A DNA stretch of 37,933 nucleotides from Planctomycetaceae bacterium (GTDB taxonomy: Bacteria; Planctomycetota; Planctomycetia; Planctomycetales; Planctomycetaceae). The stretch covers positions 1 to 37,933 of the forward strand of contig JANQQW010000057.1 of NCBI GenBank assembly GCA_028284885.1, given 5' to 3'. Numbering within the stretch: position 1 is the stretch's first letter; each line of letters opens with the position of its first letter. This document shows, in pieces, positions 2,641 to 33,878 of this stretch. The notes beneath the pieces are model-generated. The model saw only the letters and a list, made by a program, of their open reading frames with translations. It made no database searches and was not told the DNA's origin. The position numbers were made by a program, and so were the translations under genes.

Positions 2641-3774
2641 GTGGAGACGGTGACGCTGATCGCAACGGCCGCGTTCGGACTGGAGTCCGTCGTCGCGCGG
2701 GAGCTGCGCGAGCTCGGCTACGCGGAGACGACGGTCGAGGACGGCCGCGTGATCTTCGAGGCGACGCTCGACGCGATCCCGCGGTGCAACCTCTGGCTGC
2801 GGTCCGCCAACCGTGTGCAGGTGATGGTCGGCCGGTTCGAGGCCCACGACTTCGGTGAGCTGTTCGACCGCACGAACGACCTGCCGTGGGAGCGGTGGAT
2901 TCCGAAGAACGGGTCGTTCCCCGTCAACGGTCGCAGCGTGAAGTCGCAGCTCTCGAGCGTGCCGGCCTGTCAGCGGATGGTGAAGAAGTCGATCGTCGAG
3001 CGGCTGAAGAAGACGCACGCCGTCGAGTGGTTCGAGGAGGACGGCCCGGCGTGTGCCGTCGAGGTCGCCCTCAACAACGACGTGGCGACGCTGACGCTCG
3101 ACACGACCGGGCCGAGCCTGCACGAGCGGGGCTATCGCGTGGACGGCGGAACGGCACCGCTTCGCGAGACACTCGCGGCCGGGCTGATCCAGTTGAGCTT
3201 TTGGAACCGCGAGCGGCCGTTCGCCGACCCGTTCTGCGGCAGTGGCACGCTCGTCGTCGAGGCGGCCATGATCGGCCGGAACATGGCCCCCGGCCGGTTC
3301 CGGGACTTCGCCGCAGAGGAGTGGCCCGCCATCCCGGCCGAGGCGTGGGTGCGGGCCCACGAAGAAGCAAACGACGCCGTTCGCGACGGCTTCAACGAAC
3401 CGCTCGTCGGCTCCGACGTCGACGGCCACGCGATCGGCCGTGCCCGCAAGCACGCCGAGGCGGCCGGGGTCGCGGCCGACGTCCGCTTCGAGACGAAGCC
3501 CGTCAAGGAGTTCGCGGCCCGCCGCCGCTACGGCTGCATCGTCACGAACCCGCCGTACGGCGAACGGCTGGAGGAGACCGACGTCCCGCGGCTGTACGAG
3601 GAGTTCGGCCGTGCGGCCCGCAAGCTGGAGGACTGGTCGGTCTACGCCCTGACCAGCCACCCGGACTTCGAGACCCACTTCGGCCGCGACTCCGACCGTC
3701 GCCGCAAACTCTACAACGGCCGCCTGGCCTGCACGCTGCACCAGTATCTGGGTCCGAAGCCGCCTTGGCAGTAG
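2641..3774 (+). CDS. THUMP-domain class I SAM-dependent RNA methyltransferase (RlmL/YpsC type)
   Basis: The 377-residue product has a THUMP-like N-terminal RNA-binding half, then a Rossmann methyltransferase with motif I DPFCGSGTLVVEAAMIGRN and catalytic motif IV TNPPYGERL. The NPPY tetrad is typical of N2-guanine methyltransferases of the RlmL/Trm14/YpsC group, so 23S rRNA guanine-N2 methylation is the likely activity. It lacks the C-terminal RlmK half of the fused E. coli enzyme. I chose the GTG at 2641 because GGGAGG sits five bases upstream and homology begins there; the open frame continues upstream to 2551 but only through sequence belonging to the previous gene. It follows the IMPase gene by 22 bases. 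A GC hairpin follows the stop. Confidence 0.85.
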   Translation: METVTLIATAAFGLESVVARELRELGYAETTVEDGRVIFEATLDAIPRCNLWLRSANRVQVMVGRFEAHDFGELFDRTNDLPWERWIPKNGSFPVNGRSVKSQLSSVPACQRMVKKSIVERLKKTHAVEWFEEDGPACAVEVALNNDVATLTLDTTGPSLHERGYRVDGGTAPLRETLAAGLIQLSFWNRERPFADPFCGSGTLVVEAAMIGRNMAPGRFRDFAAEEWPAIPAEAWVRAHEEANDAVRDGFNEPLVGSDVDGHAIGRARKHAEAAGVAADVRFETKPVKEFAARRRYGCIVTNPPYGERLEETDVPRLYEEFGRAARKLEDWSVYALTSHPDFETHFGRDSDRRRKLYNGRLACTLHQYLGPKPPWQ

Positions 3775-3794
3775 CGGCCTGTCCCGCATGGCGC

Positions 3795-3813
3795 GTTGGC
3801 GAAGGTCGCCAAC
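3795..3813 (+). terminator. Hairpin 20 bases after the methyltransferase stop
   Basis: GTTGGCG (3795-3801) and CGCCAAC (3807-3813) form a perfect 7-bp stem with a 5-base loop. It lies between the methyltransferase stop and the next start. There is no T-run, so it may be a weak or factor-assisted terminator, or an mRNA 3' end stabiliser. Confidence 0.4.
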
Positions 3814-3836
3814 AACTGAGAGCGTGAAGGTGCCTG

Positions 3837-4229
3837 ATGAACTCCGCCGACTTGTATTCCAACGCGTTTGGGGACTGGAACCCCGAACACGATTCCACTT
3901 CAGCGATCAAATTTTGTCTCGATGCGATCTTGTTGGAAGGTGACTTTGACTGGCTCGTTGACTTCCTGGAGAGTCCGCGCGGGATGCAACTTCAGGGCGA
4001 TCCCGGCTGGGAACTCGAGAGACTCGTCGAAGATGGTTCCGCAGAGGACTCCATTCGAGCAAGTCTGCCCGTCGGCCTAATGGGAGTCGAAGTCGATGAG
4101 GTGCGGGTTGGGTTAGGTCAGTTCGCCGGCATCCTCCAGAGTATGCTGATCGCGTGGAGCGATCGGCACCCCGACCAGAACTCATTGGAGTTCAAGCGGC
4201 TCCAGGGGATGGTCCGAGCGCTCGCCTAA
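3837..4229 (+). CDS. Small acidic hypothetical protein
   Basis: The 130-residue product is not recognised. It has no signal peptide or membrane segment, is acidic, and looks like a small soluble alpha-helical protein (repeated Trp, Leu, Asp and Glu pattern). AAGGTG lies about five bases before the ATG. Base composition is clearly less GC-rich than in the flanking rRNA methyltransferase and ATPase genes, as for the other singletons in this window. It ends 162 bases before the convergent ExeA-like gene. Size and acidity would fit an immunity or antitoxin protein, but no toxin gene is next to it, so I assign no function. Confidence 0.6.
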   Translation: MNSADLYSNAFGDWNPEHDSTSAIKFCLDAILLEGDFDWLVDFLESPRGMQLQGDPGWELERLVEDGSAEDSIRASLPVGLMGVEVDEVRVGLGQFAGILQSMLIAWSDRHPDQNSLEFKRLQGMVRALA

Positions 4230-28187: not shown

Positions 28188-29315
28188 TCACGTCGAAAAC
28201 CGAAACGGGTCGCCGCGGAGTTCGTAGCCGGGGCGCATGCCGACGTTGACGAGGAGGCCGAGGGCGACGCAGGTGGCGAGGAGGCTGCTGCCGCCGTAGC
28301 TCATCAGCGGGAGCGTCATGCCGGTGATGGGCATCAGGCCGACCGTCATGCCGGTGTTGATGACCGTCTGCGCGGCCAGCAGAGCGACGATGCCGACCGC
28401 GACGAGGCGGCCGAACGGTTCTCGCGTGGCGGCGGCGATCATCAGGCCGCGGGTGAACAGCACGAGGTACAGGGCGAGCACGGCGAGGCAGCCGACGAAG
28501 CCCCAGCGTTCGCCGACGAGGCAGAAGACGAAGTCGGTCCGCCCGGCCGGCAGGTGGTAGAGGACCGGGTCGTCGGCCACCATGCCCTGCACCTCGCTGC
28601 CCCACGCGCCGCCGAGGGCGAGGACGCGCTTCGACTGGTGGAGGTGGTAGCCGTCGCCGCGCGGGGCGGGGCCGACGTCCTTCTGCGAGAAGAGGGCCGT
28701 CACCCGCGACCGCTGCTCGGCCGACATGCCGGTCCACAGGACGGGCAGCGACAGCACGCCGAGGAACGAGACGAGCGCGAGGTGCCGGGGCCGGGCGCCG
28801 GCCGTGAACAGCATGGCGAACAGCACGGGCAGGAACAGCAGCGACGTGCCGAGGTCCGGCTCGCGGAGGATCAGGCCGACCGGGACGAACGTCAGCAGGA
28901 ACGGCACGACGAGGCCGGTGAGCCGGCGGTAGTTGTCGCGGTACATCAGGTAGTGGGCGAGCGCCAGGACGTAGGCGATCTTGGCGAGTTCCGAGGGCTG
29001 CAGGTACGCGAAGCCGAGCGGGATCCAGCGGCGGGCCCCGTTCCGGACGGGCATCAGGAAGACGACGACCAGCAGGATCAGTGACAGCCCGAAGACGGCG
29101 TAGCCGTGGTGGCGGAAGCGGCGGTACGGGACGAGGGTGGCGGCGAACATGGCCGGCAGGCCGAGGGCGATCCAGAGGAGTTGCCGCTCGAAGAGCGTGC
29201 CGTCGCCGACGAGTTCGTCCCCGCGGGCGATGCCGCCGAGCCCGATGAGCAAGAGGGCCCCGCTGCAGACGACGATCGTCCACGGAACGCGGCGGCACCA
29301 CTCGGCGAAGGTCAC
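28188..29315 (-). CDS. rodA: Rod shape-determining SEDS glycosyltransferase RodA
   Basis: The 375-residue polytopic protein (about 10 membrane segments) belongs to the SEDS family (RodA/FtsW/SpoVE), the peptidoglycan polymerases working with class B penicillin-binding proteins. Diagnostic segments are [20 protein letters not shown], the [20 protein letters not shown] stretch, VGERWGFVG and the C-terminal [19 protein letters not shown]. The frame is open far upstream, but that part is antisense to other genes. I chose the GTG at 29315 ([16 protein letters not shown]), which gives a family-like length; the ribosome site is weak. No mreBCD or PBP2 gene is nearby. Presence of rodA supports a peptidoglycan wall. 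Confidence 0.92.
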
Positions 29316-29413
29316 GACGGCTCGGTCCGCACGCGGGAGGAGATCGGCGAAAACGACCGGTGGTGTAGCGGATTCCCGGAGTTCGGGGAACGGCGATCGG
29401 CGTGCCGTGTCCT

Positions 29414-29590
29414 CGACGCAAAGACGCAAAGGCGCTGAGACACGCAAAGAAGACGTCAGAGAACCGCGGATGGACACGGATGCACGCGGATGGCTTGTCG
29501 GCGTCGCGCGGGTTTCCCAATCCGTGCCCATCTGTGTGATCCATGGTCTCCCCTCTTGGCGCGTCTCAGCGGCTTCGCGGCTTTGCGTCG
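29414..29590. repeat. Large imperfect palindromic element between divergent genes
   Basis: The outer arms 29414-29452 and 29552-29590 (39 bases each) are reverse complements at roughly four in five positions and consist of CGCAAAG-type repeats. The inner arms 29463-29491 and 29519-29547 are ACACGGAT/ATCCGTG-type and pair less perfectly. The element occupies much of the 483-base gap 29316-29798 between rodA and the next gene; I see nothing else definite in this gap. It has no coding frame. Similar strings recur, from memory, in planctomycete and other environmental genomes. Confidence 0.75.
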
Positions 29591-29798
29591 AACAGCCAGC
29601 GTCACCTGTCGGAGGACGAGTACGACCCCCCGGACCCGCAGAAACCGACCGAGTCGGACGATCGGACGTGGCGTTTCGGAAACACGGCCCTCCCGGCGGA
29701 CGGGCGGGGGGATCTACGATCGACGCTCGTGGGCGACGTAGAGTCCAGCGACGGAACTCCGCGCGGGTCCGCGCCGACAGCGTTCGACGGAAGGTTCG

Positions 29799-31517
29799 AT
29801 GACCACGACAGCCGACTTCGCCACCAAGCCCGACTCGGAGCCGAGCGACGGCGTTCCGGCCGCCGGCGAGTCCGAGACACCGCGGGCCGAGACCGAGGAA
29901 CGTCCGCTGGAGGACTTGTCGCTGCTGGAGGACAAGACGCCGGACTGGTTCAAGACGACGTACCGGGTGCCGCTCGCGGCGTTCGTGCTGGGGCTGGTCT
30001 ACCTCTACTTCTCCTACACGCCGCTGTACCACACGGACCTGTGGGGCCACCTGTCGTACGGGCGGTGGATCGTGCAGAACGGCCAGCTGCCGGAGACGGA
30101 GCCGTTGCTGCCGCTCGCCGCGGGGCAGCCCTTCGTCGACACGGCGTGGCTCTCGAAGATCGTCGGCTACCAACTCGTCGAGTCGCTCGACTACGCGGGC
30201 CTGCAGTTCGTGAACGGCCTCGGCGTCGCCGCGGCGTTCGGGCTCCTCTGCCTGTGGATCGTCCACCGCACCGGGTCGCCGGTGTGGGGCGTGTTCGCCG
30301 GGGTTTTGTTCGCGATGGTCGGCTGGGAACACCTCTCGGTGTTCCGGCCGCAGCTGGTGGGCGTGGTGTTCTTCGTCGGACTGCTGACGCTGCTGCACTC
30401 GCGGCCGGAACGTTGGCAGCTGTTCGCCGTGCCGCTCGGCTTCCTGCTGTGGACCAACCTGCACGGGTCGTTCCTCATCGGCTTCGGCCTGATCGGCGCC
30501 TTCGTCGTCGGGCGAGCCGTCGACCTGCTGTGGCGAACACGGTCCTGGCGGTCGCTGTGGCACGACCGTCGGATTCGACGCGACTTCGTGCTGCTCGAAC
30601 TCGCCGGCGTGGCTTCGCTCGTGAACCCGTGGGGCCTGGGGCTGCATCTCGAGGCACTCAGCTTCGCGTCGCACCCGAACCTCGCCGCGATCGTCGAGTG
30701 GGAGCCGATGACGATCCGCATGCTGCAGGCGCGGCTGTCGCTCTATGTGCTGGCGGTCGTGTTCCTCGTGCACCGGTTCAGTCCGCGAAGGGCCTCGGCG
30801 ACGGAGCTGCTGCTGCTGATCTCGCTGGGCATGGCCTCGATGTGGGTGTCGCGGTTCATCGTCTGGTGGGGCGTCGTCGCCGCCTGGAGCACGGCGTTGC
30901 ACGCGTCCGCCGTCTGGAACTCTCAGCGCGGCACGCTGCCGGTCGCGAAGCGGCTGGAGGCCGGGGGGAAGTGGACCGTCGTCGCGATCGGCTGGCTGTG
31001 GATCGTCTTCGCGGTCTCGCCGCTGGGCTACCAGACCATCCACGGGGCGCAGCTCGACCACCGTCGGCAGCTCGGCTGGCACACGCCGATCGACATCGCC
31101 GACGAACTGGAGAAGCGGCCGCCGGAGGGCCTCGTCTACTCGACGCTGGCGTGGGGTGACTACCTGATGTGGGCGGGACCCGCGGAGATGGAGTTGTTCG
31201 CCGCTTCGCACGCGCCGGTCGTCCCCGAGGAGGTCTGGCAGGACTACCTCCGCATCTCCGCCGGGGCGGGCGGCTGGGACCACCTGCTCGCTCGGTACGG
31301 CGTGAACACCGTCGTCCTCGCGCACGGCGACCGGCCGGAGCTCGAAGCCCAACTTCGGAACGCACAGGACGAGTGGGGGACGGACTACGAGGACTACGTC
31401 GGCGTGATCTTCAAGCGGAAGAAGCCGATTCGCAACGTCACGACGACCCGCGATCCGTCACCGGCGTCGTCCGACGAGTCGCTGACCGAGATCGCCGCCG
31501 AGGAGGTGGAGCCGTGA
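29799..31517 (+). CDS. Polytopic membrane protein of unknown function (about 10 segments)
   Basis: The 572-residue product has an acidic cytosolic tail (1-50), about ten membrane segments between residues 54 and 410, then a soluble C-terminal part of about 160 residues. The motif [19 protein letters not shown] after the first segment resembles the Asp-containing first loop of GT-C-type glycosyltransferases, but the family is not certain. GGAAGG lies four bases before the ATG. Its stop overlaps the next start (GTGA), so it is translationally coupled to the anchored protein that follows. An envelope-glycan or protein-glycosylation role is inference. Confidence 0.75.
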
Positions 31518-32791
31518 ACCGAACGAGCTTTCTGACGCTGCAGGCCGTGGTGTTCGTTGCCCTCGTGGTGTCGTGGGCGCGACTGACGCCCGCCGAGCAC
31601 GACGAGGTGACGAAGCTGGTGACCGGCACGGCGCCGGTGCCGCGGATCGACGTGCCCCGCGAGCGCGGGCACCGGATGACGCCGTTGTACGACGAGCCGG
31701 AGGTCGTCTCCGACGCCGACCTCGCCGTCGTGCTCGAACGGGTCCGGCCGCGGTTCGACCGGACGTTCCTGCGGCCGAACCACGTCGAGCACGCGCTCCG
31801 GACGTGGGGCGTCGACGCGACGTTCGAGGATCCGGCGTGCCTCTCCGGCGAGGAGATGACCGAGGTGCTGACGAACCACGGGCAGTTCATGCTGTCGTGG
31901 GCGACGGCGAAGCAGCCGCCGCGGCCGCTGCTGATCGACGAGCCGGGTGGCGTGGCGATTCGCTGGTCGAAGCGGGGCGACACCTCGGTGCACCACGACC
32001 ACTGGCTCGCCTCGCTCACCGAGGCAGGCGTGCGGCTGGACCGCCCGGTCTTCACGCCCGCACGCGAGCAGACGATCGAGGACGTGCTGCAACTCGCGCT
32101 GCGGGACTTCCGGCTCGACGAGCGTGAGGTCGAGTGGTCGGCGATGGCGTTCGGACTGTGGTTGCCGCCGGAGACGAAGTCTTGGCGGACGGCGGACGGC
32201 CGACGGATGAGCTTCGACCTGATCGCCCGGCGACTGATGCGCGGGCACCAGAAGTACGGGACCTGCGTCGGCACGCACCGCGTCTACTCGCTGATGCTGC
32301 TGTGGAACCTCGACCAGCAGTACGACGTGCTGGCCGAACGGACGGCGGCCGACGTGTACGCGCACCTCGAGTTCGTGCGGGACGTGATCACGGCGTCGCA
32401 GCACGAGGAGGGCTACTGGCACGCCGACTGGATGGACGGGGCGATCGCCCTGGAGCATCCCAGTGCCGAGCCGGAACACCGGAAGATCATCGCGACCGGC
32501 CACCACCTGGAGTGGCTGGCCTACGCCCCGAAGGAACTGCACCCGCCGCGCGAGCAGATCCTGAAGGCGGCGAAGTGGATCGTCGAGTCGATCCGGGCCG
32601 AGGACGACCAGACGCTTCGCGACCGCTACACCTTCTACTCGCACGTGGGGACGGCCCTCGCTGCCTGGCGAGGGACGCGGCCGAACGACTTCTGGCAGGA
32701 GTGGCGGAAGTCGCACCCGTACGAGCCGAAGTCCGACGCGGCCGAGTACGGCCCCTCTGGCGGCGTCCAGCTGGGCGGCGACCCGGAGTAG
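31514..32791 (+). CDS. Membrane-anchored protein of unknown function, coupled to the upstream membrane protein
   Basis: The 425-residue product begins at a GTG overlapping the previous stop (GTGA), with a strong ribosome site AGGAGGTGGA at 31501-31510. Residues 4-22 form a signal anchor (FLTLQAVVFVALVVSW). The remainder is soluble and mostly helical, with Trp- and His-rich segments (HEEGYWHADWMDGAIALEHP, GHHLEWLAYAPKEL) reminiscent of alpha/alpha-barrel folds of terpenoid-cyclase or glycan-processing proteins; no catalytic motif is certain. It is most likely extracytoplasmic and works with its polytopic partner. The convergent next gene ends only 16 bases away. Confidence 0.75.
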   Translation: MNRTSFLTLQAVVFVALVVSWARLTPAEHDEVTKLVTGTAPVPRIDVPRERGHRMTPLYDEPEVVSDADLAVVLERVRPRFDRTFLRPNHVEHALRTWGVDATFEDPACLSGEEMTEVLTNHGQFMLSWATAKQPPRPLLIDEPGGVAIRWSKRGDTSVHHDHWLASLTEAGVRLDRPVFTPAREQTIEDVLQLALRDFRLDEREVEWSAMAFGLWLPPETKSWRTADGRRMSFDLIARRLMRGHQKYGTCVGTHRVYSLMLLWNLDQQYDVLAERTAADVYAHLEFVRDVITASQHEEGYWHADWMDGAIALEHPSAEPEHRKIIATGHHLEWLAYAPKELHPPREQILKAAKWIVESIRAEDDQTLRDRYTFYSHVGTALAAWRGTRPNDFWQEWRKSHPYEPKSDAAEYGPSGGVQLGGDPE

Positions 32792-32807: not shown

Positions 32808-33878
32808 TCACGGGAACAGGAAGAAGGCTCCCGTCGTCACGCCACCCTGCACGATTGCGGCGTCGAGGTTGAACGGGATCGGCTCGTACTGCTGCGGCGC
32901 GTGGTCGCCGGGGCGGTAGTAGCCCAGGGCGTACATCTTCTTGCAGTACGGGTCGATGGTCGCCTTGTACGGGATCGCGATCAGCTGCACGCCGAAGCGA
33001 GCCGCCGAGGCGAACGGCTGCACGAGGTGGTGGTGCGTGTGGCCGTACCGTTCGAGAGCCGGGTCGTCGAAGTAGAGCGGGTTGCTGTACAGGTTGCTCG
33101 CCTCCCACTCGAAGCCGATGTCGGTGACCGGGCGGATGTCGCCGGCCGCGAGGGGGAGCTCGAACTCCTCTGGACAGCGGGTGTTGAACCCCTCCGGGCA
33201 GTCCTCGGGACGCGGGCAGAGGTTCCCGCACGGGTCCTTGTCACGCAGCTCCGGGTTCGGCTCGTAGTCGGCGAACGGCTGGATGTCCTGGATTCGCGAG
33301 AGGCGGAAACCGGCCGGCGCGGCCTCGTAGTCCGGCATCGGCACCGGCATGACGGGGTTCGACTCCGCCGGCTCGTCGTCCACGACCGTCGCCTGAACCG
33401 GGGCGACGGCGTCCTCCGGCTCCTCGAAGGGCTGGAACGGTTCCTCGTCCGGGCTCGGCAGCGGGATCGGCCGACTCAGTGTGCCCTCGAGCGCCCGCGG
33501 CTTTCGCGCACGAAGACGTGTCGTCGATGCGGTCGCGGGACGCGTGGCCGGCGGCTCCGTCTCCCAACTCGTCTTCACGATCGGGTCGCGCTCGGCGGCC
33601 GGGATCGACCTTCGCGTCGGGCGTTTTGACTTCCCTGCCGGCTCGTCGAGTGTCCGCCAGCCGGAGTCGTCCGAGAACTCGAACGCGGGGCGGACGTCCT
33701 TCCAGCGTTCGGCGGCGGAACGACTTCGCAGTCGGTCCAGCGGGGACTCGGCGTGGGCCGTTCCGAAGCCGACCAGCGTGCCGAGCAGCACGGCGAGTGC
33801 CGCGACCCGTCCGAGCCGGTCAGGACTGGAGGTGTTCTGCCGAGTAGTTCGGTGCTTCCTGCGTGATGGCGATGTCAT
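32808..33878 (-). CDS. Exported Pro/Glu-rich hypothetical protein
   Basis: The 356-residue product has a long basic N-region followed by a signal peptide (about 25-44, cleaved after AHA), a Pro/Glu/Arg-rich low-complexity middle (about 60-190), and a Cys-containing patch ([13 protein letters not shown], then RCPEEF) before a beta-rich end with [18 protein letters not shown]. This last block resembles a planctomycete secreted family known only as hypothetical. AGGGAG lies ten bases before the ATG at 33878. The start lies inside the end of guaB, overlapping it by 59 bases on the same strand in another frame. Confidence 0.72.

Follow-up and report, generated by a model that had tools for sequence, protein, structure and literature searches.

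A conserved pair of a polytopic and an anchored protein in planctomycetes, possibly a glyco-modification unit of the outer cell face

Organization of the locus

The window analysed here, a stretch of 37,933 nucleotides from a Planctomycetaceae bacterium, harbours two adjacent genes on the forward strand, in the following termed P1 and P2 (Table 1). The stop codon of P1 (TGA, 31515-31517) shares bases with the start codon of P2 (31514-31516), which yields a GTGA overlap preceded by a ribosome-binding site. Both elements, which had been pointed out in an earlier reading of the DNA that used its letters only, are indeed present, although the AGGAGG bases also code for Glu-Glu-Val-Glu and the ribosome-binding site may therefore in part be a coding coincidence. 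The translational coupling deduced in that sequence-only reading holds for the overlap in the window but not as a conserved feature: a gap of -4 is found in four of the 36 pairs of clade A (see below), namely in the window, L021, L171 and L172, where L021 is a contig of Schlesneria sp. that is classified under Planctomycetaceae. In the remaining clade A pairs, the gap mostly amounts to 20-220 nt, measured to the first possible P2 start, and the overlap was accordingly rejected as conserved coupling.

Table 1. Positions of the features at the P1-P2 locus, counted from the first nucleotide of the window
Feature	Position	Strand	Description or basis
RodA/FtsW-type gene, divergent from P1	28188-29315	-	Pfam FTSW_RODA_SPOVE on 28188-29084; GTG start at 29315 set by eye
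P1	29799-31517	+	ATG start, 572 aa, about 11 membrane segments
P1 motif HTDLWGH...LPETEP in predicted first outer loop (residues 78-102), candidate catalytic or metal site	30030-30104	+	Conservation
AGGAGG, ribosome-binding site of P2	31501-31506	+	Sequence; spacing to GTG 7 nt
P2	31514-32791	+	GTG start, 425 aa, single membrane anchor
P2 membrane anchor (residues 6-24)	31529-31585	+	Hydropathy
P2 conserved core (residues 89-390)	31778-32683	+	H93, H160, D162, H163, E205, C251, H255, Q296, H330, E333, H377

The interval between the RodA/FtsW-type gene and P1 contains a dispersed repeat (29413-29591) with 38-nt inverted arms of 87% complementarity, for which 19 further matches occur in the same genome, one of them corresponding to its own inverted arms. 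Directly 3' of P2, the opposite strand encodes a protein of 356 aa (32808-33878) that matches no Pfam family at E 1.

Pairing and distribution in planctomycetes

After exclusion of overlapping loci (L022, L024, L025, L079 and L070), the gene set comprised 65 P1 and 54 P2 genes, which form 53 linked pairs. Since P1 lies upstream of P2 on the same strand in all 53 of them, the pairing is far above chance. Conservation of the pair across planctomycetes, which had been proposed as a check, was thus borne out, and a separation of the linked genes in relatives, which would have spoken against it, was looked for and not encountered. The 54th P2 gene (L072) is situated at a contig end, and a different contig of that genome (L071) probably carries its P1. 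Of the eleven P1 genes outside both pair groups, ten are devoid of a P2 in the locus stretch examined; in the remaining one, L063, a contig end probably separates P1 and P2.

P1 was detected in 52 and P2 in 40 of 59 genomes, where both figures include weak matches to distant relatives. In a phylum-wide sample, the P2 profile matched 24 of 294 genomes, 17 of which belong to the family of the window, three to another family of the class and four elsewhere. The 31 pattern stretches on viral contigs yielded no relative of the pair, and no publication on this P1-P2 pair was found among the titles and abstract openings of the open-licence literature.

The polytopic protein P1

Hydropathy analysis of P1 gives about 11 hydrophobic segments once overlapping segments are merged by eye, so that its polytopic nature stands while the ten segments originally counted become approximately 11. 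From the positive-inside rule, likewise applied by eye, the N-terminus is predicted to lie inside, while the loop that follows segment 1 and the last 160 residues would face outward. Within this loop, D80, W82, H84, G88, P98, E101 and P102 are near-invariant in clade A and in the P1-only rows; D80 in particular is kept in 35/36 clade A proteins (one gap), 13/18 clade B proteins and all 11 P1-only rows. As judged by hydropathy and by-eye topology, P1 displays the hallmarks of GT-C proteins, i.e. a polytopic architecture, an inside N-terminus and a long acidic first outer loop.

In line with the GT-C-like loop suggested earlier, P1 may belong to the GT-C superfamily on grounds of loop motif, topology and weak profile similarity; curated GT-C families are unmatched. 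P1 retrieved no Pfam family at E 1, no NCBIfam family and no PDB match in sequence and profile searches, and a GT-C model is absent among the Pfam matches of 13 P1-type members. STT3/PglB was rejected as parent family, as PF02516 matched none of the 59 genomes at E 1e-10. When the P1 profile was compared by hhalign with a set of PMT_2-type GT-C proteins collected from relatives, global mode returned 89.6% and local mode 41.5%, a weak similarity of the kind that shared membrane composition alone can raise; four other sets reached at most 1.5% in local mode. This comparison supports a GT-C identity of P1 without proving it. Compared with PMT_2-type proteins (PF13231), P1 is thus alike in predicted topology, acidic first outer loop and weak full-length profile similarity but differs in that neither P1, at E 1, nor its relatives match a GT-C model. 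The AlphaFold models of P1 (pLDDT 41.7, pTM 0.23) and P2 (pLDDT 44.9), each built from a two-sequence alignment, are poor, and helix order alone was taken further from them.

The anchored protein P2

The description of P2 as an anchored protein rich in Trp and His proved accurate, with one N-terminal anchor and 16 Trp and 20 His per 425 residues. A hydrophobic N-terminus (>1.6) recurs in 52 of 54 P2 relatives, and the portion beyond the anchor is predicted to be located outside the membrane. Across 70 rows, including 30 secreted relatives of which four are duplicates (L100-L103), H93 and H160 are present in 70/70, H255, H330, H377 and E333 in 68/70, E205 in 67/70 and C251 in 64/70; the conserved core is hence common to secreted or lipoprotein-like relatives that occur without P1. 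Because of this near-invariant His/Glu/Cys set, P2 may be the catalytic member of the pair, more than a partner, and the residue set would then indicate a type of enzyme for which there is no curated family.

P2 matched neither Pfam nor NCBIfam, and 14 P2-type members are likewise without a usable Pfam match, so both proteins of the pair stand outside the known families of these collections, in agreement with the initial impression that neither is recognised. A Foldseek search with the P2 model returned no match at E 0.001. In this low-confidence model, six helices that bear the conserved residues (2.45, 2.65, 2.46, 2.42, 2.43 and 2.68 bits) alternate with intervening variable ones (1.97, 1.69, 1.70, 1.38 and 1.70 bits), as would be expected if inner and outer helices were paired into six hairpins of a toroid. 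Judged from the modelled helix order, P2 is predicted to be an (alpha/alpha)6 toroid enzyme with five near-invariant His residues and a Glu.

When a broad P2 profile was compared with the PDB, terpene cyclases were the only matches up to E 0.6 (best E 2e-4), and these run through a single Q-x-x-D-G-x-W motif over about 28 residues. A QW-type motif, Q..[DEN]G.[WF], is found in 49 of 54 P2 proteins. On the other hand, DxDD, the catalytic motif of squalene-hopene and terpene cyclases, is missing in 54/54, for which reason membership in the SHC family was rejected. The resemblance to these toroids consequently comprises a single motif of the QW type and the predicted alpha/alpha toroid fold, whereas the lack of DxDD and of a Pfam match, the predicted outward orientation and the His-rich core set P2 apart. 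In L028 (2946-4694), a single protein carries a peptidase C39 domain followed by a P2-type domain.

Two clades and the Tad pilus neighbourhood

A quick version of the P1 tree splits into clades A and B with a support of 100 on either side. Clade A comprises 36 paired rows, including the window, and 10 unpaired ones, while clade B consists of 18 rows and the unpaired L073. The genome of the window possesses one copy of each clade, with the clade B copy residing on C240 (L022/L158). No constant neighbour gene was found at the clade A loci.

In 12 of the 18 clade B loci (G000, G003, G023, G024, G040, G049, G057, G105, G126, G234, G278 and G289), the pair is situated directly 5' of genes for Flp-like pilins, rcpC/cpaB and tadA on the same strand. 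Counted by genus, this linkage holds for 7/13, five of the twelve loci sharing one genus, and the six clade B loci without Tad genes are partly on short contigs. RcpC/CpaB, T2SSE, T2SSF and prepilin peptidase were confirmed on example loci by Pfam and NCBIfam. On the contrary, RcpC or TadA is near none of the 36 clade A loci (flanks of about 4.9 kb in the median, with 2.5 kb or more of downstream sequence in 28/36), which corresponds to a Fisher p of 5e-8 that is uncorrected for kinship; a lone pilin is encoded near the clade A locus L048. The pilins beside the clade B pairs exceed Flp in length, and none of the pilin models of Pfam or NCBIfam matches them; they are termed Flp-like because of their gene position and N-terminal helix. 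RcpC has been implicated in Flp pilin glycosylation according to the part of PMC12307814 considered here, and a passage of PMC6370729 offers glycosylation of Flp pilin as one explanation of pilus width.

Moreover, six of the 18 clade B loci, but none of the 36 clade A loci, have a GT2 gene resembling polyprenyl-phosphate-sugar synthases (GT2, GtrA) near the pair. The copy in the genome of the window contains Pfam GT2 and GtrA/DPMS domains, and that of L031 is nearest to the PgfS and ArnC models, below their cut-offs.

Proposed function and alternative explanations

The pair may constitute an outer-face glyco-modification unit whose clade B twin serves the Tad pilus, a reading to which we assign a probability of about 0.4. 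P1 would take a sugar off a polyprenyl-phosphate carrier in GT-C fashion and hand it to an envelope acceptor, while P2, held beside P1 by its one-segment anchor, would bind or finish the glycan with its central His/Glu/Cys cluster. In clade B, the acceptors of the pair might be the Flp-like pilins of the Tad pilus. The proposal draws on the uniform order of the 53 linked pairs, the clade B position at Tad loci and near GT2 genes, the P1 loop motif with its PMT_2 similarity, the conserved residues and helix alternation of P2, its terpene cyclase matches, and the acyltransferase-3-like ORF at the place of P2 in L073. The original picture of a membrane enzyme with an outer-face partner in an envelope system agrees with the conserved pair, the hydrophobic N-terminus of P2 and the sister pair at Tad loci; it is altered in that P2 may itself be catalytic and that P1 occurs without P2 in ten loci. 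Against the glyco-modification reading speak the unmatched curated GT-C families, the absence of STT3, the ten loci with P1 but no P2, the clade A loci devoid of a GT2 neighbour, the six clade B loci devoid of Tad genes, the poor models with their negative Foldseek search and the weakness of the PMT_2 similarity. The proposed role would provide a first functional context for two uncharacterised protein families.

The strongest counterpoint arises from five clade B copies of P1 (L173, L174, L175, L075 and L078, four of them Tad-linked) that have lost D80 and mostly lack H84, R183, W301 or R352 as well, so that P1 catalysis via the loop motif cannot be needed there. This motif loss points to P2 as the part whose function endures, and it agrees with an explanation in which P2 is an enzyme that acts alone on its substrate, while P1 is a membrane platform, formerly a GT-C protein, whose catalytic loop was lost in some lineages. 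The five form one group in the tree (support 94) with long branches and share 23.8% identity with the other clade B copies in P1, compared to 45.4% in P2; all 26 checked P2 residues are unchanged in the 18 clade B pairs, these five included. We nevertheless regard this explanation as somewhat unlikely, given that a platform would have no need for the D80 retained in clade A, in most clade B copies and in every P1-only row, and that P1 persists without P2.

Alternatively, the pair could aid Tad pilus assembly or pilin maturation without any involvement of sugar, e.g. as chaperone or quality control, with clade A serving another filament or lipoprotein set. The operon-like position directly 5' of the pilin genes is in accordance with such a function, but clade A is free-standing and without Tad neighbours, and the genes that accompany clade B pairs (GT2, methyltransferase, acyltransferase-like) are at odds with a sugar-free process, which renders this alternative unlikely.

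Similarly doubtful is an activity of the window's clade A pair on cell wall or polysaccharide, for which the divergent RodA/FtsW-type gene would represent the functional link. Such a gene is found near P1 in 9/36 clade A loci and two P1-only loci from several genera; however, the stretch examined contains none in the other 27 clade A loci, a gap of approximately 1.6-1.8 kb intervenes in five loci of one genus, and the neighbourhood may be left-over gene order. RodA was thus rejected as a general partner. Finally, a chance neighbourhood of P1 and P2 devoid of joint function, with which the non-conserved GTGA overlap would be compatible, is refuted by the order and strand kept in 53/53 linked pairs from many genera with differing other neighbours and by the occurrence of the pair as two sister pairs, and its probability is close to nil.

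Returning to the glyco-modification unit, passages of PMC5394234 describe that the crateriform structures of Planctopirus limnophila and Gemmata obscuriglobus bear pili-like fibres which bind dextran; planctomycete surface fibres and crateriform pores have been observed by microscopy, and these passages assign no genes to them. Tad-type loci with long pilins are conceivable candidates for dextran-binding fibres, and the clade B locus thereby supplies candidate genes for the surface fibres of planctomycetes. A more far-reaching version of the proposal, which we consider improbable as a whole, envisages P2 as founder of a novel (alpha/alpha)6 enzyme family, His-based and outward-facing, whose members, together with a GT-C-like carrier protein, would modify the planctomycete-specific long Flp-like pilins, perhaps of the dextran-binding crateriform fibres; in one lineage, the GT-C partner would have decayed to a platform without catalytic activity, and P2 would have remained functional.

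Relation to known systems

Clade B resembles the three-component polyprenyl-phosphate sugar systems of GT136, as described in part of PMC11127046, in that the gene for a lipid-linked sugar synthase lies near a GT-C-like membrane protein and an auxiliary enzyme is present besides synthase and GT-C, a likeness drawn from the description. Unlike in those systems, the synthase-like gene accompanies only one third of the clade B loci and no clade A locus, and P2 is no known epimerase. The Pgf system of Streptococcus mutans modifies surface proteins according to passages of PMC5856776, and its operon is similar inasmuch as a PgfS-like GT2 adjoins a polytopic membrane protein. However, the GT2 protein here remains under the PgfS cut-off, and P2 has no counterpart in that operon as these passages present it. 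With regard to Tad/Flp pilus loci, clade B pairs sit inside such loci, whereas P1 and P2 are not among the Tad parts described in the literature covered, and the pilins differ from Flp in length and in their lack of model matches.

Further features of the clade B loci

In L073, an acyltransferase-3-like ORF, named by eye (2817-4052), replaces P2 between the clade B P1 and three pilin genes. A second, distant P1-like protein of 539 aa with a DPDLWGH motif is encoded in the genome of the window itself (L158, 10679-12596); its neighbours are a GT2-methyltransferase protein and a Flp pilin that is short and looks canonical. An unrecognised membrane protein of about 580 aa (cluster 8) is present in the clade B neighbourhood of L031, L041, L069, L076 and L077, and some of these loci also include methyltransferase-like and sigma-54-type regulator genes. 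Among 40 pilin-type ORFs (from L157, L159-L163, L173-L175 and others), 36 carry the motif (D/N/H)(Q/H)S(Y/F) directly after the membrane helix, possibly as a modification or structural site.
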